Assembly (NCBI GenBank): GCA_004010535.1
Contig: RQYE01000006.1
Span: forward strand, 62,001-126,000
Direction of reading: 5' to 3'
Length of the DNA: 64,000 nucleotides
DNA from: Coriobacteriales bacterium OH1046
Lineage (GTDB): Bacteria > Actinomycetota > Coriobacteriia > Coriobacteriales > Atopobiaceae
Position numbers and translations under genes: made by a program. A model generated the notes under the pieces. The model was not told where the DNA came from. It did no database searches and worked only from the letters and a program-made list of their open reading frames with translations. Positions 1 through 29,587 of this stretch are shown here, piece by piece; the stretch's first letter is position 1; each line of letters begins with the position of its first letter.

Positions 1-1035
1 GGAGAGACCAAGCCGTCACCACTCGAGCTCCGAGCCATTCTGGACTTCGCCCATGATACGCCCTTCCCCAACGTATCAGAAGAGGACGCCTCGTTTACCT
101 TCATAGATCTATTTGCGGGAATCGGCGGCATTCGCATCCCATTCTCTGAGCTCGGTGGCAGGTGCGTCTTTTCGAGCGAATGGGACAAGTTTGCTGCAAA
201 AACCTACCGCATCAACTACGGCGAAGAGCCAGCGGGAGACATAACGAAGATTGAGACCAGCGACATCCCCGATTGTGACATCGTAATGGGCGGCTTCCCT
301 TGTCAACCTTTTTCTCAGGCAGGGCTCAAGCGCGGCTTCTCAGATACACGCGGCACGCTATTCTTCGAGATTGAGCGAATCATACAGGACAAGCGCCCCA
401 AGGCATTCCTGCTTGAGAACGTCAAACAGCTACGCGGCCATGACCGAGGCCGCACACTCAAAGTCATAGTGCAGCATCTCCTAGATCTTGACTACTCTGT
501 CGACTATTCCGTGCTTCGAGCAGCAGATTTCGGAGTACCGCAGAATCGTGAACGCATCTACATCGTGGGCTTCGATAAGCGCGTCTTTGGCGACGAAATC
601 TCTTTTGAATTCCCAACTCCTCCCAAGACCCCAACGCGGCTCGGCGACATCCTCGAGACAGATGTCGACGACAAGTACACGCTTTCAGATCAGCTCTGGG
701 CAGGACATCTACGCCGCAAGGCTGAACATCAGCGCAAAGGCAATGGCTTCGGATACACACTATTCAATGCTGACTCCCCATATACCAGCACCATCTCAGC
801 GCGCTACTACAAGGATGGTTCAGAGATTCTGATTGAGCAACCTGGAAAGAACCCCCGAAAGCTCACGCCACGTGAGTGCGCTAGGTTACAGGGTTTCCCA
901 GAGTCGTTCGTTATCCCAGTATCAGACACGCAAGCTTATCGCCAGTTCGGCAATTCGGTCGCGGTCCCCGTGATTCGAGCCATCGCGGCAAAAATGGTGG
1001 CCAAGATGATTAGTGGCGAGGCCACGAGCGACTAG
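1..1035 (+). CDS. DNA (cytosine-5-)-methyltransferase, 5'-truncated by the window
   Basis: The frame is open from base 1, so the N-terminus lies outside the window; 344 residues are visible. It carries the ordered C5-methyltransferase motifs: SAM-binding FIDLFAGIGG (I), the catalytic loop GGFPCQPFS (IV) with its nucleophilic cysteine, ENV (VI), QNRERIYIVGF (VIII), RECARLQGFPESF (IX) and QFGNSVAVPV (X). The enzyme transfers a methyl group from SAM to C5 of cytosine in a specific site; the target-recognition region between VIII and IX is short and gives no clue to specificity. Its 3' end overlaps the convergent McrC-like gene by 26 bp, and with that gene and the McrB-like ATPase it forms a probable restriction-modification unit. 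The family assignment is certain; the restriction partnership is inferred. Confidence 0.96.
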   Translation, partial: GETKPSPLELRAILDFAHDTPFPNVSEEDASFTFIDLFAGIGGIRIPFSELGGRCVFSSEWDKFAAKTYRINYGEEPAGDITKIETSDIPDCDIVMGGFPCQPFSQAGLKRGFSDTRGTLFFEIERIIQDKRPKAFLLENVKQLRGHDRGRTLKVIVQHLLDLDYSVDYSVLRAADFGVPQNRERIYIVGFDKRVFGDEISFEFPTPPKTPTRLGDILETDVDDKYTLSDQLWAGHLRRKAEHQRKGNGFGYTLFNADSPYTSTISARYYKDGSEILIEQPGKNPRKLTPRECARLQGFPESFVIPVSDTQAYRQFGNSVAVPVIRAIAAKMVAKMISGEATSD

Positions 1036-2296: not shown

Positions 2297-2301
2297 AACC
2301 G

Positions 2302-7647: not shown

Positions 7648-8880
7648 GTGCCGCTCGTCAAGCCGATCTCCGGCCACACCAAGCTCGGCTCCGCGCAGCG
7701 CTACCTCGAGAAGGAGGGCCGCGCGCTCGCGAGGGACTTCCTCAACCTCGACGCGCCCATGGCGGGCATCGGCGAGGACGGCCTCCCCGAGTACCGCGAG
7801 TACGACTGGGCGTCAATCATGGACGAGACCCGAGAAAAACTGGGCAACGACAGCCCGTTTAAGGGCAGGAAGGCACGCACCTACAAGCATTATGTCTTCT
7901 CCCCCGACCCGAGGGACGCGGTGAGCCTCTCAGAGCTCCGGTCTGTCACCATGTCATGGGTGGAGGAGAACTTCGGCGACTACGAGGTCGCCGTCGTGTA
8001 CCACGACGACAACGAGCACCACGTGCCCCACGCCCACGTCATAGTCAACAACACCAACCTCGTGACCGGAAGGCGCCTCCAGGACCCAGACCCCAGGGCG
8101 CTCAAGAGGTCCGCCCAGAGGATCGCCGGAGAGATGGGACTCTCCCGATTTTCGGACAGGCCGGGAAGGGCGAGCGAGAGGGACTCCGACGTATACATGA
8201 GGCGCCACGTCGACCGCCCGGAGGCAGAGTACGATGGCCGCGGCGAGTACTCCTGGGTTGCGGACATACGCGCCCGGGTCGACGTCGCGAGGAGCCTCTC
8301 CCGCAGCCCCGATGACTTCCAGGGCGCCCTCAGGGAGATGGGCGTCAACGTCCGCGTCTCCGCGAGAAGGGCCGACGACTGGGTCTACTCACTGGCGGGG
8401 ACACCGTCCAGACAGGTGAGCGGCTCCAGGCTCGGGGCGTCCTACACGAGGCGCGAGGTGACGAGGTGGATCGCCAACCCGAGCAGGCTGAGGCCAGGCC
8501 CGGTCACGTCGAGAAACGTGAGGTCGATAGCGTCGGGCGCCATCGAGGTGAGGGACCTCAGGGAGCTCAACCGCCTCGCCGAGGCCATGAGCACGATCTC
8601 CCGAGGCGGCTTCAGGAGCCTCGCCGCCATTGACTCGGCCATCTCCAGGCTTGAGAGGATGCCCAACCGCGATGCGAGCGTGGCAAGACTCGAGCGCGTG
8701 AGGGAGTACTGCGCGGAGCACTCGATACTCCCGGAGAGATCGAAGTCGCACACCGGCATGCGACGCGCAGACGGCCCAACAAGCGCGAGGGACACGCACG
8801 GGCACTCCCTGGGCAGTGGCGACTCCGCGCGCCAGGCGACCGTGCCCGAGGCGACGCGAGACGGGAGGGGCGAGCGATGA
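7648..8880 (+). CDS. Relaxase/mobilization nuclease (MobA/VirD2-like)
   Basis: The gene starts at GTG, 2 bp after the mobC stop, and codes for 410 residues. The metal-binding signature of relaxases is clear: HHVPHAHVIVNN at residues 124-135 (His124/125, His128, His130). Tyr19 in QRYLEKEGR is a candidate for the N-terminal catalytic tyrosine. The C-terminal 250 residues are basic and helical and probably bind oriT or the coupling protein. The relaxase nicks one strand at oriT, stays bound to the 5' end and is delivered by the coupling protein encoded at 23.4-25.2 kb. Its stop overlaps the next start in ATGA. Confidence 0.88.
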   Translation: MPLVKPISGHTKLGSAQRYLEKEGRALARDFLNLDAPMAGIGEDGLPEYREYDWASIMDETREKLGNDSPFKGRKARTYKHYVFSPDPRDAVSLSELRSVTMSWVEENFGDYEVAVVYHDDNEHHVPHAHVIVNNTNLVTGRRLQDPDPRALKRSAQRIAGEMGLSRFSDRPGRASERDSDVYMRRHVDRPEAEYDGRGEYSWVADIRARVDVARSLSRSPDDFQGALREMGVNVRVSARRADDWVYSLAGTPSRQVSGSRLGASYTRREVTRWIANPSRLRPGPVTSRNVRSIASGAIEVRDLRELNRLAEAMSTISRGGFRSLAAIDSAISRLERMPNRDASVARLERVREYCAEHSILPERSKSHTGMRRADGPTSARDTHGHSLGSGDSARQATVPEATRDGRGER

Positions 8881-9546: not shown

Positions 9547-11256
9547 TCAGAATGGAATCTCGAAGTCTTCGATAGGGTCGCCGTTTTCTAGTTGCGCGTC
9601 ATCGCTTTCAGACTGACGTAGCTCAACGGAAAAGGTGATGACTTTCTCCCAAACGGTTTCAAACTCCTTTGGGATGTCCTCCACTTGAAGAGCCCTCGAT
9701 GTAGCGCGTGCAAGTTCCGGTTTTGACGTTACTCCGTACTCGTCGCGCCACTGCTTCTCATAGGTAAGGTATGACGCTGACTCTGCACGCATGAACCGCT
9801 CGAAGTCTTTAGAGAAGAATGCTGCATCCCTACATACGTACATCTCGCCATCGCCGACCATTCCGTCAAGAATGGCGCTTACGTCAATGCCTAGAATGGT
9901 GCCGAGCGCATCGTTGGCTGCCTTTCCGCCCTCCTTCTTGATATCGCCGTCAAAGATGCAACAGCACTCGATCCCAAATGCAGAAAAGAGTCTCCAGTAG
10001 AGGGGTATCGAAGTCTTGCCCCGGACATTGACTATTTCCACGCCTTCACGAACGAGTGAGTGACCGAGCTTTGAAAACAGCTCGGGGAGCGCAAAGTACT
10101 CTGTTGCGCCTTCGACAATCAGCACCTTCGATGCGAAGAAGCCCTTTGCCTCGTCAGGGAATAGTTTGCTTCCATAAAAGCGTGAAACGTTTTCGGCAGT
10201 TACCTTATCTGCAGGAGCCCCAAGCTCGTGGCAGTGCCGCGCGAGCTCACCTGGCGAGACCTGCCTTGCCGAGGTGATTCCTTCGGAGCTCTTTGTAACC
10301 CTGACCATCCCGTCAAGGTTTGACATGTCAAGGAAGTCTGCGGAGTGGGTTGACAGGATGACTTGCAGGCCTTCGTTGCAAACCTCGTATACGTATTCCT
10401 TCAACCACCGTTGGGCCAAGGGGTGCAAATGGGCTTCCGGCTCCTCGATGATGAGGACGAGGGCCTTGGCACCAAACGTCTCGACGTAGGCCTTGGCAAA
10501 TGCCATGAGCAGAACCTGCTGTTCTCCTGTACCGAACTCTTCGAACGCCCTGACATCATCTCCTTCATAAGCATATATGCGGATGGACTTGGCAAAGTTG
10601 TTTGGGTCGTATGCAGAGAAGTCTGCTTTCAGGCTATGAACGAAGCCTTTGACCGACTCCTCGAGCACATCTTTGAATTTGGAGAAGAATGTCGCGTATT
10701 CGGGGACGCCCTCAAAGGTCTTCTTTATCTCCTCGAAGGAAGCCTCCAAGGAAATCCTGTCGTCCTCGGACAAGGACTGGTGTACAGCGTGCGAGAACTT
10801 GCTAAGCAGCGAGTAGCGGCTGTAGTAGCTGAGTTCCCGGCCGATGTCCCGGTCAGCATCAACGACGAAGGACTGGATAACTGATCGGGCGTCATTATTG
10901 ATGTAGAGCTTGCTTCCGTTGAGATCCGTAAACTGGCTCTGCGAGGCATCGGCTGCGTAGTGTAAGACAAAGTGGTCGTAGAGGTTGCCATACCTGTCAA
11001 CGAAGTATGTGGAGTCGAATTTGCAAGCGATAGTTGCATTCGGATATGAGGACTTGTCGCGCATGAAAAAATCGCTGTCCTCCAACTCTTGCGTCAACGG
11101 CCAACGCTCCCCAAGAGCTCGCTGTATCGCACTGATGATGTTTGACTTCCCCGCATTGTTGGCGCCAAACAACACAAGAGGTTTGTTCTCCGGCATTCGT
11201 ATCTCAACGTGACCGATCGAGCGATAGTGGTCAATGACTACTTTGCTGAGCCGCAT
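9547..11256 (-). CDS. OLD-family ATP-dependent endonuclease (AAA ATPase plus TOPRIM)
   Basis: The 569-residue product has an ABC/RecF-like ATPase domain with Walker A GANNAGKS at residues 31-38 and a Walker B segment LVLIIEEPEAHLHPLAQRW, whose histidine switch is typical of OLD proteins. A TOPRIM nuclease domain follows, with VLIVEGATEY and the acidic metal-binding segment CCIFDGD. OLD nucleases act against phages or foreign DNA. Class 2 members pair with a UvrD helicase (Gabija), but no helicase gene lies beside this one, so it is most like a stand-alone class 1 protein. GC near 50% marks it as cargo placed between the mobilization and secretion operons. GGAGAACG precedes the ATG, with a TAAAAT -10 candidate just upstream. 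Confidence 0.9.
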   Translation of the reverse strand: MRLSKVVIDHYRSIGHVEIRMPENKPLVLFGANNAGKSNIISAIQRALGERWPLTQELEDSDFFMRDKSSYPNATIACKFDSTYFVDRYGNLYDHFVLHYAADASQSQFTDLNGSKLYINNDARSVIQSFVVDADRDIGRELSYYSRYSLLSKFSHAVHQSLSEDDRISLEASFEEIKKTFEGVPEYATFFSKFKDVLEESVKGFVHSLKADFSAYDPNNFAKSIRIYAYEGDDVRAFEEFGTGEQQVLLMAFAKAYVETFGAKALVLIIEEPEAHLHPLAQRWLKEYVYEVCNEGLQVILSTHSADFLDMSNLDGMVRVTKSSEGITSARQVSPGELARHCHELGAPADKVTAENVSRFYGSKLFPDEAKGFFASKVLIVEGATEYFALPELFSKLGHSLVREGVEIVNVRGKTSIPLYWRLFSAFGIECCCIFDGDIKKEGGKAANDALGTILGIDVSAILDGMVGDGEMYVCRDAAFFSKDFERFMRAESASYLTYEKQWRDEYGVTSKPELARATSRALQVEDIPKEFETVWEKVITFSVELRQSESDDAQLENGDPIEDFEIPF

Positions 11257-11375: not shown

Positions 11376-11480
11376 CTACCGGCGGAGTCCCTCCATCCGG
11401 TCCGCCTCGCCCGCCACTCGGCAGCAGGCGTAGGCGGTCATCGCGATGACGCCGAGCGCCACCAGGATCGCCTTCCTCAC
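11376..11480 (-). CDS. Small 34-residue membrane peptide translationally coupled to the adhesin gene
   Basis: The GTG start overlaps the adhesin stop codon (GTGA), and GGAGG sits at ideal spacing inside the end of the adhesin gene, so coupling is strong. The peptide has a short basic start (VRKAIL), a hydrophobic stretch (VALGVIAMTAYACC) and a charged tail (GEADRMEGLRR). It could be a single-pass membrane peptide or, with its CC pair, a tiny lipid-linked protein. I recognise no family. It is the last gene of the conjugation operon. Confidence 0.6.
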   Translation of the reverse strand: MRKAILVALGVIAMTAYACCRVAGEADRMEGLRR

Positions 11481-14400
11481 ACTATCACCTCCTCTCCCTG
11501 GCCGAGGTCGGGCATGACCTGCGTGACGCGGCCGCGTCGGATGTGCGGGTAGCCGTCGTCGGGGTCGTCACCGTCCCACCCGTCACCGCGGCGGCGTCGG
11601 TGGAGCTCCCACACGCCAAGCGCGACGAGCCCGGAGCCGCTGGCCACCATCGCCGCAACGAACGGCCCGAGCCGGGTGTCATCGCCCGTCTTGGGCAGCA
11701 GTCGCGGTGTGGTCGGGTTCTCGGGCACCTTGGGCTCCTCGACGTGGATGGTCTGGCCCTCGTCCTTGAGGTCCTCGTGCTTTGCCACGGTCGCCTTGCC
11801 CTGGGTCAGCACCTCGAAGGCCACGAGGTCGTGACCGCCCAGCTGCGATGCGTCCAGCTCGAAGGTGACGATCACCTTGCCGTCAGCCTTTTCGGGCTTG
11901 AACGAGGTGCTGGCTGTCACCGGCTTGCCGGACCCGTCGGTCACGGGCTTGCCGGTCTCGCGGTCCATGAGCGTGCCGGTCAGCGCATACTCCTGGCCCG
12001 GCGTGAGACCCTGGTAGGAGACCGCGTCGACGATCTCGACCTTTGTGGCCTCGACCGTATGGTCGCCGTCGGCCTTGTCGGTGGCGGTGGTGCCGATGGC
12101 CACGACGCGCACCGTCTGGCCATCGTCCTCGATGTCCTCGTGGTTGGCCACGATGGCCTCCCCGCGCGTGAGCACCTCGAAGGCGACCAGGTCGTGCCCT
12201 GCCAGCTTGGAGCCGTCCACCTCGAAGGTGACCGTGACGGTGCCGGACTCCTCCTTCGGGGTGAAGGTGGCGCTCGTCGTCGCTCCGTCGACCGCCTTGC
12301 CCGTGGCCTTGTCCATGAGGGTGCCGGTGACGACGTACTCCTGGCCGGGCGTGAGGCCCTCGTAGGCCACCTCGTCGGCGATGCGGAGCTTGGCCGAGGC
12401 CTGTGCCACGTGGTCGCCGTCGGAGGCGTCGGTGGCGGTGGTGCCGATCGCCGGGATGCGCACGGTCTGCCCCTCGTCGGTGAGGTCCTCGTGCGCGGCC
12501 ACGACGTGTCCCTGCCAGGAGACGCGCTCGAAGGCTACGAGCCCGTGCCCGGAGAGCTCGGAGGCATCGATGGTGAAGGTGACCTCGACCGTCCCGCTCG
12601 CCTCCTCGGGCGTGAAGGTCGCGGACGCCGTGGCGCCCTCTATGGCCTCGCCCGTCGCCTTGTCCACGAGCGTGCCCTCCACGGCGTGCTCCTCGCCGGG
12701 GACGAGCCCCTCGTAGGAGACAACGTCGGTGATGGTGAGGGACTCGGATGCCGCCGCCTCGTGGGCCCCGCCTGTCGTGGCGGTGGTGCCGATCTTGGGC
12801 AGCGTGACCGTCTGGCCCGCGTCCTCGATGTCTGCGTGCTCGGCGACCTCGGCCTCGCCGAGGTAGAGGCGCTCGAACACGACCACGTCGTGCCCCGCGA
12901 GCTGCGTGGCGTCGAAGGAGAGCTCCACCGTCGCCTCGCCGTCCGGGGACTCGGGTGTGAGCTCAGTGGTGGCGCTGACGGCGCTCCCGTCGAGTCCCGT
13001 CACCGGCTCGCCGGTCGACTTGTCCATGAGGGTGCCTGCCAGCTGGTAGGTCTGGCCGGGCAGCAGGTTCTGGTAGGCGACCGTGTCCGTGACGGTCACG
13101 GAGTCGTCGGCGAGCGCCACGTGCGCGCCCGTCTCGGAGTCGGCAGCGGTGGTGCCGATCTCGGGGACGTGGACCGTCTGGTCCTCGTCCTCGATGTCGG
13201 CGTGGACCGCCACCTCGACGCCGTCCTCGAGCAGGCTCTCGAACGCGACGATGGACACGTGGTTGACGTAGTTCACCTTGAACGTGAACTCCATCTCCAC
13301 GGTGCCGGAGCTGGTCTTGGCCTTGAAGGTGGTGCTGGCCGTGGCGGGGTTGCCGTCCGCGTCGAGCAGGGGCTCCCCCGTGGCCTTGTCCATGAGGGTG
13401 CCGTTGACGGTGTACTCGCGGCCCAGCTCCAGGTTCTCGTACCAGACCGTGTCGGTGAGCGTCATGTCGTGGTCGCCCTTGGTGATGTGGGTCCCCTCGC
13501 GTCCGGTCAGCTCGGTCTCGATGCGCGGGCCGGGACTGTCGTCGACGGTGCCGCCGTCGACGTCGGTGCCGTGGCGCGTCACCGTGATCGTGAGCGTGAC
13601 GAGCTCGAGGCCCTCGTTGGCGGCCACGCGCAGCTCCTCCACCCGGTAGGTGTCGAAGGGGAGCGCCCCCAGGCTGTCGATCGGGTCGGTGGTGACGTCG
13701 GTCGCGCCTGTGAACCACACGCCCGCGTCGGGGTCGAGCGCGGCCTCGTCGACCGTGCCGTCCGCGGACACCGCCGCGTCGTTGGCGTTGGTGCGCTGGG
13801 AGTGCGGGTTCCAAGAGCTGGCCGTGTCGATCTGCCCGTTGGCGTCGCTGACGACGACGTGGGACTCGCCGGTGGTCTCGGAGGTGACGAGGAACGGGAT
13901 GCCCGAGAGGCGCCCCATGCCGCGCTCGCGCACCTTCACGAGGTGCAGGTCGCCTCGGATGACCTGGTCGTCGACGGCGTCCTCGGTCGTGTTCAGCAGC
14001 GCCACCGAGCCGTCCTCGCGAACCTCGAAGGTGCGCGACCACTCCTCATTCAGGAGGTAGCCCCTCGGGGCCTTGGTCTCGCGCACTACGTAGGTACCGT
14101 AGGGCAGGCCGTCCGACGCCACGAAGGCGAGGCCGTCGGCGTCGGTGGTGAGCGTCAGGCACGCGTCGCCCGGCTGGACGAGCTCGCCCCCCACGAGCAC
14201 GGCGCGCTCGCTCGAGTTGTAGACCGTGAGCTCGGCGCCCTCGAGCGAGGCCCCTCCCAGTGGGCGGAACCTCAGCGTCTCTCGGTCCTGCTTGGCGACG
14301 TCGAGGCCGCCGCGGATCACCTGGTCCGCGTTGTGCTGGCCCTCGCCGGGGCTGTACACCTTGCCGTCCTCGCGTACCTCGAAGGTGAAGGACCAGGCCT

Positions 14401-15970
14401 CGTCCGGGAGGTAGCCCGTGGCGGGCTCGATCTCGCGCACCTCGTAGGTTCCGTAGGGCAGCAGGTCCGCGGGCGTCGCGAGCGACCCGTCGTCGGGATC
14501 GGCGGTGCCGCTCCACACGGCCTCGTCCCTCCCGTAGGGCTTCCCGCCCACCGTGACGGGACCGGCGCTCCTGTTGTAGATGGTGTAGGTGGCGTCGAGC
14601 GAGGCGTCGCCCTGGGGGACCGTCCCGTCAAGCTCCAGGTCGCGCTTGGCGAGCGACATGCCTCCGCGGATGACGTCGTCGGCGACCTCAGGCGCCACGT
14701 AGGTCGTGACCGCCTCGGCGGTGCCCTCTGCCGTGACGCTCACGGTGTGGGGCCTGCCGTCGGTGAGGAGGTAGCCCTCCGGGGCCTTGGTCTCGGTCAC
14801 GACGACCGTGCCGAGCGGGACGGTGGGGTTGCCCTTGGAGTCGTGGTAGAGGTCGTCGCCGGAGACGAGGTGCTCGGCATCGAGCGTGGCCCTGCCGTCC
14901 GCCCCGGTGCGCAGCACCCAGGTGCGGGCGGGCTTCCCCTCGGCCTTGGCGGAGGCGTAGCACTCCACGCGGAACTCCGCCCCGGCGAGCGTGGCGTCGC
15001 CCTGGGCCGCCGCGCCGGTCTCCGAGTCCACCTTCGCGACCGCGAGGTCGAGCGGGTTGGACTGCGGCTGCTCCGGGGCGTCGACGTGGGAGTCCCTCCC
15101 CGCGCTGACGGTGACCCTGTGCGCCTTCCCGTCGAGGGCGTATCCCTTGGGCGCCTTGGTCTCGCGCACCCAGTAGGTGCCCGGGGCGAGCTGGTCTGCC
15201 GAGCCGTTCCCCTTCGAGTCCGTCTTGATGGTGGCCGCCTTGTTGGTGCAGCCCTCGTCGGTGAAGACGCCGTACTCCGCGCCTGCCAGGCTGTAGAGCC
15301 CCTCTGCCGCAGATACGGAAGTGTCGGCGGAGGACTTGCCCAGGCTGATGGAGCCGTAGGGCAGCACCTCGACGACGCTCTGGCATGGGGCCCCGTCGTT
15401 GTACCAGACGCGGCTCATGCGGTCCCACTCGCCGCTCTGCCCGGCGTGCGCGCGGGCGTCCGCCACCACGGACTGGATCTTGCCGGCGTCGGACCGGCTG
15501 ACGCGGCCTCCCGCGCCCTCGTAGATGTTCCCGCTCATGTCGGCCACCGAGTACGCGCCGCCCCCGAAGTCGACGCTCGCGCCGCAGAGCATCCACACCG
15601 CGAGGTTGATCGAGGAGTCGGGCGTGGCGAAGCCCTGCGGGTTGCCCGGCGCGACCTGGCTCATGAGGTAGGCCAGCGCGTGCGGGTCGGGCAGGATCCC
15701 GGAGGCCTCGCCGGTCCAGTCCCATCGGGTGAACGTGTGGTCGTCGGGGTTGCCGCGCTCGGGGTTGATGCAGTACGCCTCGTGGCCGTCTGCCGTGCCG
15801 AACGCGATGAAGCCCTCGCCCCCGTGGGTCGAGCTCGTGATGGTCATGGAGCCGCTCGCCGCGTAGGCGGCGATCGGCGCGAGCGCGCCGAGGAGCTGGG
15901 ACGCGACGAGCGCCGCCGCCATCACGAGCCCCCCGAGGCGCCTGAGGATGTCCTCTCTCTTCCCGCGCAT
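11477..15970 (-). CDS. Giant SpaA/VaFE-repeat surface adhesin with LPKTG anchor
   Basis: The start at 15970, right after the upstream stop, opens a signal peptide (residues 1-38, cut near AAYAAS). The mature 1497-residue chain first has a Cys-containing domain (HEAYCINPE) that resembles thioester domains of Gram-positive adhesins. At least four SpaA/Cna-B-like domains follow, recognised by ends such as VVTETKAPEGYLL, YEVREIEPATGYL and VVRETKAPRGYLL. Then come five VaFE-type repeats (HDLVAFE ... DIEDDGQTV ... IGTTATD). The sortase motif LPKTG is at about 1425-1429, followed by a membrane helix and RRRR. It probably displays an adhesin for mating-cell contact, a role like PrgB of enterococcal plasmids. 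The cytoplasmic tail after RRRR is about 36 residues, longer than usual. No sortase gene is in the window. Confidence 0.9.
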   Translation of the reverse strand: MRGKREDILRRLGGLVMAAALVASQLLGALAPIAAYAASGSMTITSSTHGGEGFIAFGTADGHEAYCINPERGNPDDHTFTRWDWTGEASGILPDPHALAYLMSQVAPGNPQGFATPDSSINLAVWMLCGASVDFGGGAYSVADMSGNIYEGAGGRVSRSDAGKIQSVVADARAHAGQSGEWDRMSRVWYNDGAPCQSVVEVLPYGSISLGKSSADTSVSAAEGLYSLAGAEYGVFTDEGCTNKAATIKTDSKGNGSADQLAPGTYWVRETKAPKGYALDGKAHRVTVSAGRDSHVDAPEQPQSNPLDLAVAKVDSETGAAAQGDATLAGAEFRVECYASAKAEGKPARTWVLRTGADGRATLDAEHLVSGDDLYHDSKGNPTVPLGTVVVTETKAPEGYLLTDGRPHTVSVTAEGTAEAVTTYVAPEVADDVIRGGMSLAKRDLELDGTVPQGDASLDATYTIYNRSAGPVTVGGKPYGRDEAVWSGTADPDDGSLATPADLLPYGTYEVREIEPATGYLPDEAWSFTFEVREDGKVYSPGEGQHNADQVIRGGLDVAKQDRETLRFRPLGGASLEGAELTVYNSSERAVLVGGELVQPGDACLTLTTDADGLAFVASDGLPYGTYVVRETKAPRGYLLNEEWSRTFEVREDGSVALLNTTEDAVDDQVIRGDLHLVKVRERGMGRLSGIPFLVTSETTGESHVVVSDANGQIDTASSWNPHSQRTNANDAAVSADGTVDEAALDPDAGVWFTGATDVTTDPIDSLGALPFDTYRVEELRVAANEGLELVTLTITVTRHGTDVDGGTVDDSPGPRIETELTGREGTHITKGDHDMTLTDTVWYENLELGREYTVNGTLMDKATGEPLLDADGNPATASTTFKAKTSSGTVEMEFTFKVNYVNHVSIVAFESLLEDGVEVAVHADIEDEDQTVHVPEIGTTAADSETGAHVALADDSVTVTDTVAYQNLLPGQTYQLAGTLMDKSTGEPVTGLDGSAVSATTELTPESPDGEATVELSFDATQLAGHDVVVFERLYLGEAEVAEHADIEDAGQTVTLPKIGTTATTGGAHEAAASESLTITDVVSYEGLVPGEEHAVEGTLVDKATGEAIEGATASATFTPEEASGTVEVTFTIDASELSGHGLVAFERVSWQGHVVAAHEDLTDEGQTVRIPAIGTTATDASDGDHVAQASAKLRIADEVAYEGLTPGQEYVVTGTLMDKATGKAVDGATTSATFTPKEESGTVTVTFEVDGSKLAGHDLVAFEVLTRGEAIVANHEDIEDDGQTVRVVAIGTTATDKADGDHTVEATKVEIVDAVSYQGLTPGQEYALTGTLMDRETGKPVTDGSGKPVTASTSFKPEKADGKVIVTFELDASQLGGHDLVAFEVLTQGKATVAKHEDLKDEGQTIHVEEPKVPENPTTPRLLPKTGDDTRLGPFVAAMVASGSGLVALGVWELHRRRRGDGWDGDDPDDGYPHIRRGRVTQVMPDLGQGEEVIV

Positions 15971-15972
15971 GG

Positions 15973-16479
15973 CTACTCGCCCCGCACTGTCTCGGGCTGG
16001 GGGTCGCCGGCCCCAGGGCGCATGGCCTCGGAGCAGGCGCGGGCGTCCTGCGCGTGCTCCGCGAGCGGGCGGGGCGCCTGGTGGAGCTCCGCCCAGCGTC
16101 GGCGCGACTCGATGAGGGCCTCCTTGATCGCCTGAGGCGGGACCTTGCGGGTCTCGACCTGGTTGCGGCCGTTCTCGTCGGGGATGGGGTTGCCGTCCGC
16201 GTCGAGCACGGAGCGGCGCAGCCACACCTCTCGGTCGGCGAGCAGCGGGATGTCGCGCCAGTGCTCCCCCTTGAAGCGGCTCTCGTCGACGAAGAGCGCG
16301 CTGAACTGCCAGCCCCCGAGGTCCTCGCCGTCGACGACGGTCCCCATGGGCAGCGTCACGAGGTTGAACGACCTCTCCTCGCCGGTCTTCCAGTCCTGGT
16401 AGTGGATGTCCTCGCGCACGAAGTTCTCGTGCACGGTGAGGTAGACGCGCTGGCGCCCCTCGTGGTTGGTGTCGGCCAT
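15973..16479 (-). CDS. Unrecognised 168-residue conjugation-operon protein
   Basis: The ATG at 16479 has AGGGAGGCC upstream. The soluble product has a compact N-terminal part with beta character (RQRVYLTVHENFVREDIHY, FNLVTLPMGTVVDG, WQFSALFVDESRFKG) and a helical, charged C-terminus. It has no signal peptide or membrane helix. I do not recognise the family; the beta-rich core could be an OB-like or single-strand DNA binding fold, but that is a guess. It sits between the VirB6-like and adhesin genes with only 2 bp to the adhesin start, so it belongs to the transfer operon. Confidence 0.8.
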   Translation of the reverse strand: MADTNHEGRQRVYLTVHENFVREDIHYQDWKTGEERSFNLVTLPMGTVVDGEDLGGWQFSALFVDESRFKGEHWRDIPLLADREVWLRRSVLDADGNPIPDENGRNQVETRKVPPQAIKEALIESRRRWAELHQAPRPLAEHAQDARACSEAMRPGAGDPQPETVRGE

Positions 16480-18274: not shown

Positions 18275-20128
18275 CTATTCCAGCGGGATGCCTCCGTACC
18301 AGCCCCAGCGCGGGGTGGCGCGCGCGGAGTAGTAGGCCACCCACTCATCGACGGGGGTCATGCGTATGTAGCCGACGTTGTCGCGGACCATGCCGCCTCC
18401 CACGTAGACGGCGACGTGGCCGTAGATCTTGCCGGCCTCCGAGGCGGGCGAGGACGGCACCGCGATCACCATCCCGGGCCTGAGGGTCGACAGGTCCGAG
18501 CTCGTGCACCACGACCAGTAGATGTCGCGTGCGTCGCCGCCGTACTGGCGCCCCAGCCCCACGCGCTCGTAGACGCGCATGACCCACTCCGCGCAGTAGC
18601 CGCCCTCGTGGTAGGTCTCCGCGAAGGCCGCGTTGACGACGGCCTGCTGCCTCGCCGACGCGTCCGCGCCGAGGTCGAGCGCGCCGGTGACCTCGCCTCC
18701 CGATGCCTCGAAGTCCTCCGCGCTCATCGAGTCGAACCGCCTGAGGCCGTAGGAGTCCATGACCGAGACGAGCGCCGCCACGTAGTCGGAGCTCGTGGCG
18801 TACCCCGCGTCCTTGAGGCCCTCGGCCATGAGGTCCGAGTCGCGCTCGGCGATCGCCCGCCGGATGATGGGGTTGTCCGCGTAGAGCGGGTTCTGCAGCA
18901 GCACGCGCGAGCGGAAGCGGATCGAGGCGACCTTCGAGGTGAAGCAGGTGAAGTAGTCGGTGATGGTTACGGCCACCCCGTCGTACTCCTCGCCGGTGAG
19001 CCACGCCTCGCAGCCCGACACCTCGGGGCACCCAGCGAAGCTCGGGGACCACTTGATGCCGAAGAGGTTGTTGTCGCGCTCGGCGAGCCCCGAGAGGTGG
19101 TCTCCCACGCCGGACTCGAGGATGATCTGCGCGAGCGTGCAGCCCGCCGGGTGTCCGTACTCCTCCTGGCACTCGAGGGCCTCGAGCACCATCTCGTAGG
19201 TGATGTAGGGCGGCAGCCCCGCCACGACCCTCTGCATGTCGTCCTCGTGCTTCCAGAACCCGAAGAGCGAGCCCATGAGCTGGCTCGCGAGCAGTGCCGC
19301 GAGCACGAGCGCGAGCGTGGCTGCGGCCGCACCTGCCAGGGGTGCCGCGAGCGACGCTATCGCCGCGACGAGCCTGTCGCGGACCCTTCGCCTCGCCCCA
19401 AGGGCGACGGGCGAGGCCGCGGTCGGCGCAGCCTGGGCCGCGTGCGCGCCGCGGATGGCCGAGGCCATGTTTGCTCGCCCCTGCCGCTCCCTCGCCGTCA
19501 GCCGCCTTCGCGCCGAGCGCGAGAGCCTCCCCGGGCGGGACGGCCTCGACGCAACGCGCGAGTCGTGGCGCGGGGTGGGCCTGCGCCGCCGCATGGCGGC
19601 CTCGCGGCCGCCTTCGGTGTCGATGCGCTGGCGTGGCTGGCGCGTCCCCGTTGACGCGGCTGGCGCATCTGCGTTGGTGCGACTGGCGGGGATGCGTTGG
19701 TGCGTTTGGCGGGCCTGCGTCGTTCGCCGCGGGAATCCTGTCGCGCCTTCAGCCGCGACGGGTGTCTCTCCCGCGTCCTCCGCTTCGGCGGCGCCGTCAG
19801 AGAGCCGGTCGTACATGCGCCGCTTCAGCCCGCCCTCTGCGATGGCGATCGCGTCGTCGGAGGCGTCGTGGTCGCCGTCGCCGTCCCGGTCGCCGCCGAG
19901 CGCCCAGTCGGCGGCCTCCGCCGCCCTGCGGCGCCGGTCCTCGAGGCGCACGGCCCTGGCCGCTGCCGCCGAGGCCCCGGCGCGGGCCCCGCCCCGCCTG
20001 GTGGCGGAGAGGGCGCCCTCGTCCGAGCCGTGGGCGATGCCGGCGCTGACGGCGTCGGTCCTGCCCTCGCGGGCGACCGATGCCGCGCTTCCGGCGCTCC
20101 TCTTGGCGACGTCCGGGCGTGCCGTCAT
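18275..20128 (-). CDS. Conjugation cell-wall hydrolase: glucosaminidase-like plus CHAP-like domains
   Basis: The start at 20128 overlaps the VirB4 stop (ATGA). The 617-residue protein has a long basic, low-complexity cytoplasmic N-terminus (about 1-230). A membrane helix follows, around ASLAAPLAGAAAATLALVLA. Next is a FlgJ/glucosaminidase-like domain containing LAQIILESGVGDHL and ERDNNLFGIKWSPS. The C-terminal CHAP/NlpC-like domain has a catalytic Cys in GGYCAEWVMRVY and a His in GHVAVYVGGG. Such VirB1/PrgK-type enzymes open peptidoglycan locally for the secretion channel. It lies in the expected place after VirB4. Confidence 0.88.
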   Translation of the reverse strand: MTARPDVAKRSAGSAASVAREGRTDAVSAGIAHGSDEGALSATRRGGARAGASAAAARAVRLEDRRRRAAEAADWALGGDRDGDGDHDASDDAIAIAEGGLKRRMYDRLSDGAAEAEDAGETPVAAEGATGFPRRTTQARQTHQRIPASRTNADAPAASTGTRQPRQRIDTEGGREAAMRRRRPTPRHDSRVASRPSRPGRLSRSARRRLTARERQGRANMASAIRGAHAAQAAPTAASPVALGARRRVRDRLVAAIASLAAPLAGAAAATLALVLAALLASQLMGSLFGFWKHEDDMQRVVAGLPPYITYEMVLEALECQEEYGHPAGCTLAQIILESGVGDHLSGLAERDNNLFGIKWSPSFAGCPEVSGCEAWLTGEEYDGVAVTITDYFTCFTSKVASIRFRSRVLLQNPLYADNPIIRRAIAERDSDLMAEGLKDAGYATSSDYVAALVSVMDSYGLRRFDSMSAEDFEASGGEVTGALDLGADASARQQAVVNAAFAETYHEGGYCAEWVMRVYERVGLGRQYGGDARDIYWSWCTSSDLSTLRPGMVIAVPSSPASEAGKIYGHVAVYVGGGMVRDNVGYIRMTPVDEWVAYYSARATPRWGWYGGIPLE

Positions 20129-22647
20129 GCGAAGTGCCTCCCCGGGGGCGCCATGGGGTCGGGCACGCGGCGTGCGAGGCGCCCGGTGTCGCCCGCGGCC
20201 CGCCTTGCCTCGGCGACCTCGTCGGGCTTGGTGTTGAAGAGGTCGTAGAGCTCGCCCCTGGGGAAGTCGTCCTTGATGGGGACGCGCGCGGCGCCCGCGA
20301 CCAGCAGTCCCTCTCCGGGCCGCACCGACTCGTCGATGTAGGTTGCCTCCTCGTCGGAGAGCCCGAGCAGGTCCACCCACGCCTTGCGGTCGAGCGGCGA
20401 CTGCTTGTGCAGCAGGATGAAGTCGGAGTTGAGCACCATGTTGCGCGCCTCCTCGTGCGCGAGCATGTAGACGCTGTTCTGCGTGATGCCCGTGCAGACG
20501 AGGTTGAACTTGCGGCCCTCCGCCCAGAACTTAGAGAAGTAGCTTACGATCGCGGGGTGGTCGAAGAGCGACTGGACCTCGTCGATGTAGAGCCAGGTGG
20601 TCACCCCCCTCTCCCAGTTGCGGTACATGAGGTTGCGCACCGCCTCCAGCGCCGTGAGCATCGCGAAGGTGCGCATGTTGCTGGAGAGGTCCTTCAGGTC
20701 GATGTTGGTGACGCGGGCGTCGAAGCCCACCGTCGACTCGTGGTTGAAGAACGAGAGGGCGCCCTTGACATAGCGCTCGTAGCGGAGCGCTATGTCGCGC
20801 GCCTCGGGCTCCCCCTGCTCGAGGAGCACGTCGTAGAGGTCGCCGAGCACGGGCACGCGCCCCACCGCGCCGCAGCGCTCGTAGGCGAGCTCCACGCAGC
20901 GGCTGATGATGGACTTGTCCGCCTCGGGCAGGCCCTGGCTCCCCTCCGCCATCGTTGCCCCCGAGAGTGCAAGGAACGCGTCGATCTTGAAGGCTCGCTG
21001 CGCCGCGGGCGGCTGCCCGGCGACGTCGGCGAGGTCGAAGGGGTTGAGGCAGGCGCCCGAGCCCGGGCCGAGCTTCACCGAGACGCCGCCGTTGGGCACA
21101 ACGACGCTCGCGTACTCGCCCGCCGGGTCGAAGATCACGACCTGGTCGTTCCGGTACGCCAGGATCGTGTTCTCGATCTCGCGCTTCACGGAGAAGGACT
21201 TGCCGGAACCGGGCTTGCCCGACACGTAGCCCATCGGGCTCGCCAGGCTCTTGCGGTTGCAGATCACGAGGTTGCTGCTCACCTTGTTCTGGCCGTAGTA
21301 GCCGCCTCCCTCCTGGTTCACCTCCTGGGTGGCGAAGGGGATCTGGATGGCGACCTCGGCGGTGGTGGAGAGGCGACCGACCTCGACGTGGTTGTTGCCC
21401 AGGGGCAGGACCGAGTTGAGGCCCTCGCGCTGGCGGTACGCGAGGGTGGAGAGGTCCACCGACCACGAGCGCGCCGTCGAGACGATCTGCATCACCTGGT
21501 TCTCGAGCTCCGCGCGGGTGCGCGCGTAGGTGTGCACGAGCCCGGTGTAGGCGAAGAGGCGCTGGTTCTTGTTCTGCAGGTGGTCGAGCAGGTCCTCGGC
21601 CTCCGCCTTGGAGTACTTGAGCTCCGAGGGCAGGATCTCGAAGTCGTAGCCCTTCTTCACGGCGCTCATCTGCTCGTCGATGATCTCCTTGTCCATCCAT
21701 GCGAGGCGCTGCTTGACCAGCGCCACCGCCTTGGCCTTGTCCATGCCCTGGACGTGCAGGGTGGCGCAGAGGGGTATCGGCAGGTCGATGACCGACGCGA
21801 GGCAGCGGTCGGAGAGCTCGCTTCCGAAGGAGCGCACGACGAGCGTCTGGTGCCACATGCCGTCGATGCGCAGCTGGGTCGAGGACCCCTCGGGGCGCAG
21901 CTCGATGGCGTCCGGGCAGACGAGGTCCTTGGTGCGAAGTCCCGTCGTCGGCCCCACCATCGACCAGTCGAAGACGAGCGGTCGTCCCGGCCGGAGCAGG
22001 TCGTTGATGGCGCGCAGCCTTGCCTCGCCGTCGAGCGGCTCCACCTCGCAGCGGACGCGCGAGAGGGCCCCGGCGACGCTGCCGCGCACGCGCGCGAGCA
22101 TCGGCACGGCGGCGTCCACATCGCGGGCTCCGACCGCGTAGGTGATCGTGCGGGTGCGCACGAGGTTGGAGACCCCCTCGCGCATCTTGTCGTTGAGGAT
22201 GCGGTTGTACTCGCGCGCGTAGCGCCCCGTGACGGGGTCCGAGTCGTCGAAGAACGCGCGGTTGCCGACCTCCTCGGCGGGAATCGGCGTGTTGGCGACT
22301 GAGAGCTGCAGCGACGTGTCCGCCCCGAACGAGTCGTAGAGCTGGCAGCAGGCCGAGAAGATGGCCTCCTGGGCCTCCTGCCGGGCGGACTGGTAGCTCA
22401 CGTCGGAGAACGACACCGTCTGCGAGAAGAGCCCGCGCTCCACCTCGCAGATGCCGTCGCGCCACATCGTCTCGAAGCCGATCGCGCCGTAGACGTCGCG
22501 CGCGGCGCGGCGGCGCTTTCGCTGCTTCCTGGTCCTCGAGGAGAGCTCCCTCTCCTGGTCGCGCAGGCGACGCTCGACGGACCGTCTCGAGCGCGCGCGT
22601 TCCCGCTCGCGGTCGCGCGCCTCCCTACGCCTCCTTGCTCGGCTCAC
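20125..22647 (-). CDS. VirB4-like conjugation ATPase
   Basis: The GTG at 22647, inside the end of the PrgI gene, is the most sensible start; GGGGGCGGAG precedes it. This gives 840 residues and a 23-bp overlap with the PrgI gene. The N-terminus is very basic (about 1-60). The ATPase domain has Walker A GKPGSGKS at about 478-485 and a Walker B segment TTWLYIDEVQSLFDH near 710, as in the VirB4/TraE/PrgJ family. It powers assembly of and transport through the type IV secretion system. The stop overlaps the hydrolase start (ATGA). Confidence 0.92.
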   Translation of the reverse strand: MSRARRRREARDRERERARSRRSVERRLRDQERELSSRTRKQRKRRRAARDVYGAIGFETMWRDGICEVERGLFSQTVSFSDVSYQSARQEAQEAIFSACCQLYDSFGADTSLQLSVANTPIPAEEVGNRAFFDDSDPVTGRYAREYNRILNDKMREGVSNLVRTRTITYAVGARDVDAAVPMLARVRGSVAGALSRVRCEVEPLDGEARLRAINDLLRPGRPLVFDWSMVGPTTGLRTKDLVCPDAIELRPEGSSTQLRIDGMWHQTLVVRSFGSELSDRCLASVIDLPIPLCATLHVQGMDKAKAVALVKQRLAWMDKEIIDEQMSAVKKGYDFEILPSELKYSKAEAEDLLDHLQNKNQRLFAYTGLVHTYARTRAELENQVMQIVSTARSWSVDLSTLAYRQREGLNSVLPLGNNHVEVGRLSTTAEVAIQIPFATQEVNQEGGGYYGQNKVSSNLVICNRKSLASPMGYVSGKPGSGKSFSVKREIENTILAYRNDQVVIFDPAGEYASVVVPNGGVSVKLGPGSGACLNPFDLADVAGQPPAAQRAFKIDAFLALSGATMAEGSQGLPEADKSIISRCVELAYERCGAVGRVPVLGDLYDVLLEQGEPEARDIALRYERYVKGALSFFNHESTVGFDARVTNIDLKDLSSNMRTFAMLTALEAVRNLMYRNWERGVTTWLYIDEVQSLFDHPAIVSYFSKFWAEGRKFNLVCTGITQNSVYMLAHEEARNMVLNSDFILLHKQSPLDRKAWVDLLGLSDEEATYIDESVRPGEGLLVAGAARVPIKDDFPRGELYDLFNTKPDEVAEARRAAGDTGRLARRVPDPMAPPGRHFA

Positions 22648-23041
22648 GGAGCTCCGCCCCCTTCCTCCGCGCGGCACGGCGGTGCCTGCGGGTAGTCTTT
22701 GCGGCCAGGCGCTCCGGCCTGGCCCAGGTCTGCCGCCAGTTGCTCGTGTAGGCGAGCTCGGACGGCCCGAAAAGGTGGTCCCACAGCAGCGGCGCGAACC
22801 GCTCCGCGGGCATGCCGTGGGGCCTCCAGAACCCCAGCAGCCAGAACGGGACGCTCGCGCACATGACGGGCAGGCTCGCGTCGGAGACCGCGATCCCGAG
22901 GCACCAGTGGCAGAGCGCGGCAGCGGCCACGCTCGCGGCGAGCCCGAGCGCCACACAGCAGAGCGTGCGCAGGCTGAGCTTGCCGACGACCTTCTCGCGG
23001 TACTCGCCTATGTCCTTGTGCACGGCGACTGAGAGCGACAC
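22625..23041 (-). CDS. PrgI-like (VirB3-like) membrane protein
   Basis: The protein has 138 residues. It starts with the PrgI-type segment VAVHKDIGEYREKVVGKLSLRT, then two close membrane helices (LCCVALGLAASVAAAALCHW and SLPVMCASVPFWLLGFWRP). A basic tail follows, with the conserved-looking FAPLLWDHLFGPSELAYTSN. PrgI/VirB3 proteins stand next to VirB4 in nearly all Gram-positive conjugation systems and anchor it to the membrane. Here too the VirB4 gene overlaps its end. The start is 10 bp after the Maff2-like gene. Confidence 0.85.
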   Translation of the reverse strand: MSLSVAVHKDIGEYREKVVGKLSLRTLCCVALGLAASVAAAALCHWCLGIAVSDASLPVMCASVPFWLLGFWRPHGMPAERFAPLLWDHLFGPSELAYTSNWRQTWARPERLAAKTTRRHRRAARRKGAELREPSKEA

Positions 23042-23421: not shown

Positions 23422-25236
23422 TCATGGCGATCGCCTCCCCTCGACGAGCGCCCGGACGTCCAGCCCCTCTCCGAGCTCCCCGTGCCGGGGGTGGCGCTCG
23501 GGCGCGTACTTCAGGTCGCACACGGGGTCCGCGCCTGCGATGAGCACGATGGCGCGGCGTCGGTCGAGCCTTCCCACCTCCGCGGCCTGGATGAGGTCGC
23601 GCTCGGTGGTCTGGTAGTTGGAGGAGGAGCTCGGGGACGCGCCCCGGGTCTCGTTGTGGGTGCGGGTGGAGACGGTCTCCTTGCCGACGGCCTCCGAGAT
23701 CCCCTTGTTTGTGGAGCCGGACTTTCCGCCCAGGAAGAGGGTCGTGTCGCAGCAGTCGAGGATGGTCTCCGCGTCGTCGCCGTAGGCGCTCTTGAGCTGG
23801 GCGAGCGACTGCAGCACGACCGAGACGCCGATGTTGCGGGAGCGCACGACGGCGATGGTCCGCTCGAAGTCGGGCAGGCGCCCTATGTTGGCGAACTCGT
23901 CGAGCACGAGGTGCACCGGCGTCGGCAGCTCGCCGCCCCACTCCGTGAGAGCTCGCTCGCATAGGACGTTTCCCGCCTGCCACATGAGCATGGCCAGCAG
24001 GAACGAGTATGTGGCGTTGGTGTCCGAGGTGGTGGCGAAGATCGCGGCCCTCTGCCCGGGGTCGCCGAGCGTGTCGAGGCGCATGTCGTCGGCCGAGAGG
24101 ATGTCCTTGAGCTCCTCGGAGGCCAGGGCCGACAGGCGCGCGTTGCACGAGATGATGATGGACTTGAGGGTCTTGCCCGCCGCCGCCTTGAACGCGCGGT
24201 AGCGGCCGAGCGCGTAGTCGGAGTCGGGGGTGGCGGGGTCGCACCAGGGCACCCAGCGCACAGACTCCCGCGCCCCTCCCATGGAGCGGCCGTCGCCTCC
24301 GGCGCCCCCAGGCGCGGCGACGCAGCGGCACCCGGTCTCGAGCTCCCGGAAGAGCACGTCGAGCGGGCTCATGAACGACTCGTCCTCGTCGCGGGCCTCC
24401 GCGAGCGACAGCAGCGTCATGAGGCTGGGCAGCGTCCGGTCCTCGGGCGGGCAGTGGTAGGTGAGGTAGCCGATGAGCGCGCAGTAGAGCAGGCGCTCCG
24501 AGTTCTCCCAGAAGGGGTCGTTGGCCGACTTCCCCTTGGGCGTGGTGTTCACGATGAGGCACTCGACGAGCTCGAGTACGTCCTGCTGCGTGCGGACGTA
24601 GGCGAGCGGGTTGTAGCGCATGGAGAGCGAGAAGTCGACGGTGTTGAGGGTGCGCACGTCGTAGCCGTGGGCGGCGAGCATCGCGCCGAGCCGGCGGACG
24701 GTCGTTCCCTTGGGGTCGGTCACGAGGTAGCTCGCGTTCATCTGCATGAGGTTGGGCTCGACGTAGGTGCGGGTCTTGCCCGAGCCCGAGCCGCCTATCA
24801 CCACGACGTTGCGGTTGCGCTCCCAGCGCGGGTCGTGGTCGTCGCGCGACATGGCGAGGCGGACGTTCTGGGTGAGTAGGATGTTGTCGTCGGGGCTCGC
24901 CTCGTCGGAGAGGCGCCTCAGCTCCCTGGGCGTGGCCCAGCGGGCGCTGCCGTGCTCCTCGCCGGAGCGGTAGTTGCCGCGCCTCGCCACCATGTTGGCC
25001 CAGGCGACCCACACGCCGCAGCCCGCGGCAAGCCCACACGCGAGCGCGAGTGGCGCCGCCGTCGGGAGCGGGCCATGGCTGGCTATGTAGGAGGGAAGCG
25101 TGGAGAGCGCTGCCGACAGGTTGGTGACGGCCTCGCCGGGAAGCGACGCGAGGTTCGACGCGTAAAGGTCGGTCGCCCAGAAGGCCGCCGCCGAGCCGGC
25201 GGCGGCGACGCCCATGCCCGCGTACGGGCGGCTCAC
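23422..25236 (-). CDS. Type IV coupling protein (VirD4/TraG/PcfC-like)
   Basis: The 604-residue protein has N-terminal membrane segments (about 5-25 and 58-82), then the coupling-protein ATPase: Walker A GGSGSGKT at 148-155 with the following TYVEPNLMQMNASYLVTDPKG, and Walker B LVLDEFANIGRLPDFE. It brings the relaxase-DNA complex to the channel. The start overlaps the PcfB-like stop (ATGA). The PcfB-PcfC order is that of enterococcal pCF10-type and many ICE systems. Confidence 0.95.
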   Translation of the reverse strand: MSRPYAGMGVAAAGSAAAFWATDLYASNLASLPGEAVTNLSAALSTLPSYIASHGPLPTAAPLALACGLAAGCGVWVAWANMVARRGNYRSGEEHGSARWATPRELRRLSDEASPDDNILLTQNVRLAMSRDDHDPRWERNRNVVVIGGSGSGKTRTYVEPNLMQMNASYLVTDPKGTTVRRLGAMLAAHGYDVRTLNTVDFSLSMRYNPLAYVRTQQDVLELVECLIVNTTPKGKSANDPFWENSERLLYCALIGYLTYHCPPEDRTLPSLMTLLSLAEARDEDESFMSPLDVLFRELETGCRCVAAPGGAGGDGRSMGGARESVRWVPWCDPATPDSDYALGRYRAFKAAAGKTLKSIIISCNARLSALASEELKDILSADDMRLDTLGDPGQRAAIFATTSDTNATYSFLLAMLMWQAGNVLCERALTEWGGELPTPVHLVLDEFANIGRLPDFERTIAVVRSRNIGVSVVLQSLAQLKSAYGDDAETILDCCDTTLFLGGKSGSTNKGISEAVGKETVSTRTHNETRGASPSSSSNYQTTERDLIQAAEVGRLDRRRAIVLIAGADPVCDLKYAPERHPRHGELGEGLDVRALVEGRRSP

Positions 25237-28577: not shown

Positions 28578-28862
28578 CTACCTATTGCCCGTGACGTTCC
28601 CGAAGGCGGCGCTGGCAGCCTGCTTGTTGATGAGGATCTTTCTTCCGACGCGCTCGTGGGGGAGTTTCCCTCCCTCGATGAGTCGGTATATCCTTCGCCT
28701 GTCGACCTGGAAGTACAGCTCGACCGCTCGCACGTCGAGCCAGATCTCCGTGTCGGGCATCGAGGAATTGGCGAGCGACAGCCTGTCATGGTCCGCCTTG
28801 CATCGTGGGCGCAGGCGGTCTTCCCTGATCGCTCTTCTGGTTGCGGCGTCGATCCTGGGCAT
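28578..28862 (-). CDS. HTH/excisionase-family DNA-binding protein
   Basis: The ATG at 28862 is best supported: GAGGGAG lies 6 bp upstream. An in-frame ATG at 28880 has no ribosome site. The 94-residue basic protein has a C-terminal excisionase-type HTH (DVRAVELYFQVDRRRIYRLIEGGKLPHERVGRKILINKQ), closely similar in design to the gene at 27827-28129, including the preceding acidic WLDVRAVELY segment. It is the gene closest to the attachment site and lies behind shared-type promoter C. A role in excision or in switching the element is likely. Confidence 0.78.
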   Translation of the reverse strand: MPRIDAATRRAIREDRLRPRCKADHDRLSLANSSMPDTEIWLDVRAVELYFQVDRRRIYRLIEGGKLPHERVGRKILINKQAASAAFGNVTGNR

Positions 28863-28913
28863 CGTCTTCTCCCTCGTCATGGTGAATGGGCTCGCAAGGA
28901 GAGGGTCTGCCCC

Positions 28914-28993
28914 TTTATAGGATCTGGAGATGGTCACTGCCTGCTGGCAGGGAAGTTCAGCTATCACGCGCGATCAGATGGTATCCGCGTCAC
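28914..28993 (-). promoter_or_regulatory. Shared-type promoter C, upstream of the end-proximal HTH gene
   Basis: On the minus strand, GTGACGCGGATACC (28980-28993) precedes GATC and GATAGCT (28959-28965), then 39 bp, then TATAAA (28914-28919). The layout is the same as promoters A and B. Confidence 0.7.
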
Positions 28994-29054
28994 GAAACCT
29001 GCACGTTTGTTGCTTTGGGGAAACTGTCGTGTTTGCGCAGCTCAGATGCTCTGC

Positions 29055-29084
29055 TTGTGGCCACTTGTGGCCAGCTTGTGGCCA
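29055..29084. repeat. Three TTGTGGCCA repeats left of tRNA-Pro, candidate integrase arm sites
   Basis: TTGTGGCCA occurs at 29055-29063, 29065-29073 and 29076-29084, with about 10-11 bp periodicity. A related group lies at 29350-29392. Each group is 75-90 bp left of a copy of the 40-bp tRNA-derived repeat, the usual layout of tyrosine-integrase arm sites near a core site. Confidence 0.55.
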
Positions 29085-29092
29085 GAGCTAAA

Positions 29093-29124
29093 GAAAAAGG
29101 TCAGGGGAATTACTCCCCTGACCT
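29093..29124 (-). terminator. Rho-independent terminator after tRNA-Pro
   Basis: Perfect 10-bp arms AGGTCAGGGG and CCCCTGACCT (29098-29124) lie directly after the tRNA on its strand, followed by TTTTTCTTT. This is a standard terminator for the tRNA transcript. Confidence 0.9.
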
Positions 29125-29133
29125 GCGATTTCA

Positions 29134-29210
29134 TGGTCGGGACGACTGGATTCGAACCAGCGGCCTCACGGTCCCGAACCGTGCGCGCTACCAAACTGCG
29201 CCACGTCCCG
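29134..29210 (-). tRNA. tRNA-Pro (anticodon CGG)
   Basis: The minus strand folds as a full 77-nt tRNA: acceptor CGGGACG/CGTCCCG with encoded 3' CCA, D-arm GGCGCAGTTTGGTAGCGC, and anticodon stem CACGG/CCGTG with loop TTCGGGA. The loop gives anticodon CGG, which reads the proline codon CCG. The T-arm GCTGGTTCGAATCCAGT completes it. Its 5' half is repeated at 29467-29506, so it is the insertion target of the element. Confidence 0.96.
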
Positions 29211-29349
29211 ACATAGTGCCATATGTCAACTCTCCGGAGGGCACGTCTCCGGTGTCTCCGAACGACCGCCTGCGAACTCCAGTCGACCGTCCATCGACGC
29301 CCTGCGAATCGGTTAAGCGGCGGCGCCGCAAACCCGTTCCGCGCGGGTT

Positions 29350-29392
29350 TTGTGGCCACGTTTGTGGCCACGCTGTGGCCCGTTTGTGGCCA
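29350..29392. repeat. Second group of TGTGGCC repeats, candidate integrase arm sites
   Basis: TTGTGGCCA is found at 29350-29358, 29362-29370 and 29384-29392, with a variant CTGTGGCCC at 29373-29381. The step is about 11 bp. The group lies about 75 bp left of the second 40-bp core copy. Confidence 0.55.
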
Positions 29393-29466
29393 ACAACACA
29401 CCAACGAGCCGTTTACCTGCGACTCCTCGGCTTTGGGAATTAGGTAGTGAAACTACGTTCCCTAGC

Positions 29467-29506
29467 TCCCGAACCGTGCGCGCTACCAAACTGCGCCACG
29501 TCCCGA
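29467..29506. repeat. 40-bp direct repeat of the 5' half of tRNA-Pro (attachment site copy)
   Basis: Bases 29467-29506 are identical to 29172-29211, which cover the acceptor, D-arm and anticodon part of tRNA-Pro. The copy lacks the 3' half, so it is not a working tRNA. It marks a recombination junction; the chromosome begins to its right. A small hairpin, GGGAA..GTAGT/ACTAC..TTCCC (29435-29462), adjoins it. Confidence 0.8.
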
Positions 29507-29587
29507 TTGCGGGATACATACTAGCAGATTATCAACCCCCCTGTGTCGGGAAACCACGGGCAAGGACAGCAAATCCGGAGTATGCCG

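Follow-up and report, generated by a model that had tools for sequence, protein, structure and literature searches.

Islands inserted into tRNA genes are typically described with a single displaced gene fragment: in the Islander set, where 2083 of 3919 islands have an anticodon-loop crossover, this fragment is the 3' part in 3760 cases and the 5' part in 159, and a hybrid gene is rebuilt from the fragment held in attP (PMC4383910). The 5' half of a tRNA gene is also included in the attB of pTN3-type archaeal integrases (PMC8371274). Elements with additional att sites are known as well. In CIME accretion and in ICE-CIME composites, modules share att sites with an internal attI and can move together (PMC5704250), and PAISt of Streptomyces turgidiscabies has one internal and two flanking att sites served by one integrase, modular excision having been shown (PMC4057263).

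The locus described here lies in the window (the whole 64-kb stretch of DNA that was analysed, positions 62001-126000 of contig C15 in the 2.38 Mb, 19-contig genome G000). It resembles the Islander islands in having a tyrosine integrase, an anticodon-loop crossover (TCCCGAA at both ends) and a tRNA function that is kept, but differs in that the ICE, taken between its outermost ends (S1-S3), displaces both host fragments, the working gene being wholly the element's. We put at roughly 85% the probability that this ICE splits the host tRNA in the anticodon loop and has a whole substitute tRNA gene of its own, 295 bp inward from its end. The pTN3-type integrases, by comparison, restore a hybrid gene, and of the two only this ICE carries a whole one. 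For the presence of three att sites in a single element, CIME accretion and PAISt are the closest parallels. Two modules with common att sites and an internal attI are what the ICE shares with CIME composites; unlike in these, the second module is 295 bp long, non-coding and conserved, it supplies the right end, and an entire tRNA gene serves as the internal att site. By contrast, PAISt targets bacA at its 3' end rather than a tRNA, has modules of 105 and 569 kb and brings no replacement tRNA. Tycheposons, which also have a tRNA gene at their border and a tyrosine recombinase, may have part of this anatomy in common with the ICE. In our incomplete coverage of the literature we found no precedent for an ICE that displaces both tRNA halves and brings the whole gene.

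The features referred to below are as follows (window coordinates; no strand is given where none applies):

1-29473: in-window part of the ICE, whose left and right ends were both located
7648-8880, plus strand: relaxase (PF03432)
20125-22956, minus strand: VirB4-like conjugation ATPase of the CD1110 family (NF045971, 870 bits)
23422-25236, minus strand: VirD4-like coupling protein of the CD1115 family (NF045973, 489 bits)
28578-28967, minus strand: excisionase-like helix-turn-helix gene adjoining the right end (TIGR01764 excise, PF12728; longest open reading frame, the true start may be internal)
29055-29084, plus strand: arm cluster 2, three TTGTGGCCA repeats left of the carried tRNA (TTCCGGTCA instead in the G140 element)
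29090-29123, minus strand: terminator-like hairpin and T-run of the carried tRNA, read from the sequence and conserved in relatives
29134-29210, minus strand: whole tRNA-Pro(CGG) gene, carried by the element and the sole intact one of G000
29172-29178: S2, anticodon loop of the carried tRNA, an internal att-like site (attI)
29212-29466: tail between the carried tRNA and S3, containing arm cluster 3, conserved only with the element
29234-29252: dyad CCGGAG-N7-CTCCGG upstream of the carried tRNA, from alignment with the G140 element
29350-29392, plus strand: arm cluster 3, three TTGTGGCCA and one CTGTGGCCC left of S3 (TTCCGGTCA instead in the G140 element)
29467-29473: S3, right crossover in the 7-bp anticodon loop TCCCGAA between element and host tRNA 5' half, with conservation in 11 genera up to this point and host-specific sequence past it
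29474-29506, minus strand: displaced host tRNA-Pro(CGG) 5' half, which makes a full tRNA (ARAGORN) with the 3' half at C15:53664-53702, pairing across the split being seen in relatives

The exact 40-bp repeat occupies 29172-29211, within the tRNA-Pro(CGG) gene, and 29467-29506 (starts 295 bp apart, with 255 bp separating the copies), and such a repeat within 64 kb is far above chance expectation. All six copies of TTGTGGCCA in the window fall within two clusters (at 29055, 29065 and 29076, and at 29350, 29362 and 29384), with 0.33 copies per window expected from shuffling and none of 100 shuffles reaching six; the degenerate fourth arm copy CTGTGGCCC starts at 29373. The clusters stop 87 bp and 74 bp left of their respective TCCCGAA cores. 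The original prediction had the repeat and both clusters in the right places, and its view that a mobile element at tRNA-Pro has its right end here, with two att-like junctions (29172 and 29467) and two sets of repeats resembling integrase arm sites, agrees with what follows. A minus-strand open reading frame (29042-29404) was rejected as a gene, since it overlaps the tRNA and the arms.

When the G000 genome was searched with 29055-29560, a partial match was found at C15:53646-53709. There the 3' half of a tRNA-Pro(CGG) gene runs up to the anticodon loop TCCCGAA, past which the sequence is AAAGTTCCAGCG; three copies of TTGTGGCCA and a gene for a tyrosine integrase (PF00589) come next, and a dnaK-like gene, recognised by reading the sequence, lies further left of this end. 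A further copy of the 40-bp core had been expected left of the window, but the match at C15:53664-53709 holds the tRNA 3' half and has only 7 bp in common with it; the crossover, first placed over the 5' half and the anticodon, is thus corrected to the 7-bp loop. Joining the left end to the right flank from 29467 yields a complete tRNA-Pro(CGG) according to ARAGORN, and the element is therefore C15:53703-91473, with the host tRNA split at the anticodon loop. It is 37.8 kb long, of which 8.3 kb, including the integrase gene and the left end, lie left of the window. An assembly artefact was rejected as the source of these junctions, identical ones being found in about 20 independent assemblies.

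The integrase, the PF03432 relaxase and the CD1110 VirB4 and CD1115 VirD4 family proteins are all encoded inside this interval, so that by its predicted gene content (integrase, relaxase and type IV secretion genes between defined ends) the element is an ICE. The remainder is that of a usual ICE, coding also for an ArdC-like antirestriction protein and a large VaFE/SpaA-like surface protein; the latter, with VaFE/SpaA repeats, is 1582 aa long (window 11477-16225) and faces a 1530-aa open frame on the opposite strand. A defence-like cluster (window 1-4005 plus C15:61695-62000) comprises an LlaJI-type restriction endonuclease (PF09563), an McrB-like AAA protein and, by sequence reading, a DNA cytosine methyltransferase. 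At 9547-11256 the ICE encodes an OLD-like TOPRIM/AAA protein with weak similarity to retron Eco8 effector nucleases.

Of 395 genomes of the order, 23, belonging to 11 genera in two families, have the 255-bp tail, and all of these have the element too. Wherever the junction could be read, the tail runs as far as TCCCGAA, where the 5' half of the resident host tRNA takes over. The host right flank of G137 is 92% identical over 2.5 kb to G130, a tail-less genome with its host tRNA intact, the alignment starting exactly at the tRNA end, and the G012 right flank likewise aligns with G142 from the tRNA end. G130 and G142 thus serve as empty sites for the right boundary, making the tail the element's right end and S3 its boundary. 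No same-genus empty site with both G000 flanks was found, conserved right-flank sequence in G003 and G004 beginning about 0.8 and 2.3 kb from the tRNA. What had been predicted to be a 254-bp remnant of a second, abutting element is consequently the 255-bp conserved right end of a single ICE; in no genome did this spacer occur alone, as it might have done in relatives free of any ICE.

If the left end and the intact tRNA were considered alone, the locus would resemble a standard island, and an Islander-type scan would report it as such (PMC4383910). The ICE would then end at the intact tRNA (29172-29178), half of which would belong to the host and half to the element, the second 40-bp copy being an unrelated older scar. 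G000 has host and carried tRNAs of identical sequence, so relatives are needed to decide whether the intact gene is cargo. In G012, G063, G148 and G154, the intact in-element tRNA has the anticodon-stem allele CACGG/CCGTG, that is, the element's allele in both halves, while the 5' half past the tail, the host's, has CCGAG. In the six genomes with both ends readable (G009, G012, G076, G147, G149 and G150) the displaced host halves pair with each other perfectly (7/7 in the acceptor stem and 5/5 in the anticodon stem), and combining a host half with an element half breaks 1 to 3 pairs; G009 and G076 differ in the acceptor stem too (CGGGTTG/CAACCCG). An island ending at the intact tRNA is already contradicted by these alleles, and we consider it very improbable. 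The comparison with relatives, rather than G000 itself, thus identifies the intact tRNA as cargo and not as a regenerated host gene.

A pattern search for an intact tRNA-Pro(CGG) anticodon arm found one in G000 and one in G012, both the element's; several carriers have none in this search because their contigs break in the region. The carried tRNA is identical at 77/77 positions across 11 elements, whereas the adjoining tail falls to about 79% identity in the G140 element, and the displaced host half in G148 has a 4-bp deletion, which suggests that the carried gene is under selection and the host halves are decaying. The G140 element also keeps the dyad upstream of its carried tRNA with bases altered on both sides (CCGGG/CCCGG), and the dyad could possibly be an operator.

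Arm repeats occur in three clusters of 3 or 4 repeats each: at the left end, beside the carried tRNA and in the tail. The G140 element has the same layout and an integrase 69% identical to that of G000, but all three of its clusters are made of TTCCGGTCA instead of TTGTGGCCA. As its tail is homologous to the G000-type tails, all three clusters have changed along with the integrase. The best evidence for a role of the cluster beside the carried tRNA is that it follows the integrase type; this cluster probably functions, and the tRNA next to it would then probably be an internal att site.

We propose that the ICE inserts by means of its tyrosine integrase, with a crossover that falls within the 7-bp loop of the anticodon in the host tRNA-Pro(CGG) gene, and that attP would consist of tail arms, TCCCGAA and left arms in this order. 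Insertion separates the two halves of the host gene, the 3' half coming to lie at the left end of the ICE and the 5' half at its right end, so that the host gene is destroyed. The ICE makes up for this by bringing a whole tRNA-Pro(CGG) gene that has an upstream region and a terminator of its own and is presumably expressed in place of the host's. The arm cluster next to it would probably make the carried tRNA a second, internal att site for the same integrase type, which could allow excision or insertion by S1 x S2 with a conventional right end and offer a place for later elements to insert. Neither 140 genomes nor viral contigs contained the attP junction itself (tail-TCCCGAA-AAAGTTCC, AAAGTTCC being the element start).

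A second, conventional right end at S2 is suggested by G086, although it is less certain than the S1-S3 anatomy. The G086 element is 99.6% identical to that of G001 over its last 3.4 kb but stops at S2, passing directly into the host flank, so that the Islander pattern of one displaced fragment and a hybrid gene, which the S1-S3 ends do not show, is present in this copy. In G085, the half-tRNA at S2 of a TTGTGGCCA element is immediately followed by the start of a TTCCGGTCA-type element. G144, G062, G148, G138 and G001 have between two and four successive left ends, and no contig that was read has more than one tail. Decayed units lie between the left ends of such arrays at tRNA-Pro(CGG) in L129, L128, L130 and L131 (two to four left ends). 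In G138 and G062, displaced tRNA-Pro 3' halves are broken by a palindromic insert with a GTGCCAGTGGCAC core, starting with CCCCTAGGGTGC (L128:8680-8770 and L131, minus strand, about 8230-8310), and in G092 the anticodon loop is occupied by an element of a third type, whose arm repeats resemble TAGTACGCG (L147, minus strand, about 9704).

The arrays, together with G086 and G085, are compatible with units whose movement is S1-S2 or that use the carried tRNA as an insertion site, but later loss of tails, through recombination of one 40-bp repeat with the other, would leave the same picture. Such a loss in G086 after insertion, by S2 x S3 recombination and with a single mode of movement, is a serious alternative to which we would give somewhat less than even odds: the repeats are in direct orientation, and the footprint that S1 x S2 excision would leave (host 3' flank, tRNA, tail) was seen at none of roughly ten right ends with a readable left side of the carried tRNA. 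It leaves unexplained, on the other hand, why the arms by the carried tRNA follow the integrase type and why arrays have several left ends and one tail. We tentatively entertain, with rather more doubt than belief, the reading of one integrase and one left end with two right ends, in which use of S3 would kill and replace the host tRNA gene and use of S2 would rebuild a hybrid gene, the carried tRNA acting as replacement, second att site and landing pad. This reading draws mainly on one genome (G086).

The S2-S3 module has att cores and arms but no genes, which fits the definition of a CIME-type module beside an ICE. It may derive from a decayed ICE or IME; no longer element filling the S2-S3 interval was found in the relatives searched. 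The locus could accordingly be a composite in which a conventional 3'-half ICE (S1-S2) lies beside a 295-bp cis-mobilizable remnant (S2-S3) of another element, the two sometimes moving together. Each part has its own arm cluster, in G086 the ICE has no tail, tRNA-Pro(CGG) frequently bears tandem arrays, and accretion and CIMEs are already known (PMC5704250). Yet in about 11 genera the tail accompanies the element, never occurring alone, and in each of the two element lineages its arms are of the type that goes with the integrase. We consider the composite unlikely. Accretion of two elements is possible as an origin, but the data do not fit two independent elements today, and the two related elements of the original prediction are not borne out.

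A single ICE that replaces the tRNA it splits is the reading we retain. Its hosts belong to about 11 genera, mainly Atopobiaceae, the named integrase carriers being Atopobiaceae, Coriobacteriaceae and Olsenella MAGs, several of them from deer and sheep gut. Most carriers are MAGs, and both ends are on a single contig in G000 only, elsewhere being on separate contigs.

Island finders that assume one displaced fragment will set the ends of such elements wrongly; the 2-kb length filter and one-fragment logic of Islander would misplace the right end of this ICE by 295 bp. In the usual account, attP contains no more of the tRNA than is required to restore the gene, which ties an element to hosts with a matching half. 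With the whole gene carried, only the 7-bp loop and neighbouring core contacts would be needed, opening hosts with a different tRNA allele to the element, which is present in hosts of at least three tRNA alleles. If the reading with two right ends is true, the carried tRNA as a landing pad would explain the tandem arrays at this locus. For the host, its only tRNA-Pro(CGG) would have been replaced by a foreign one, and deletion of the element without precise excision would remove that tRNA.
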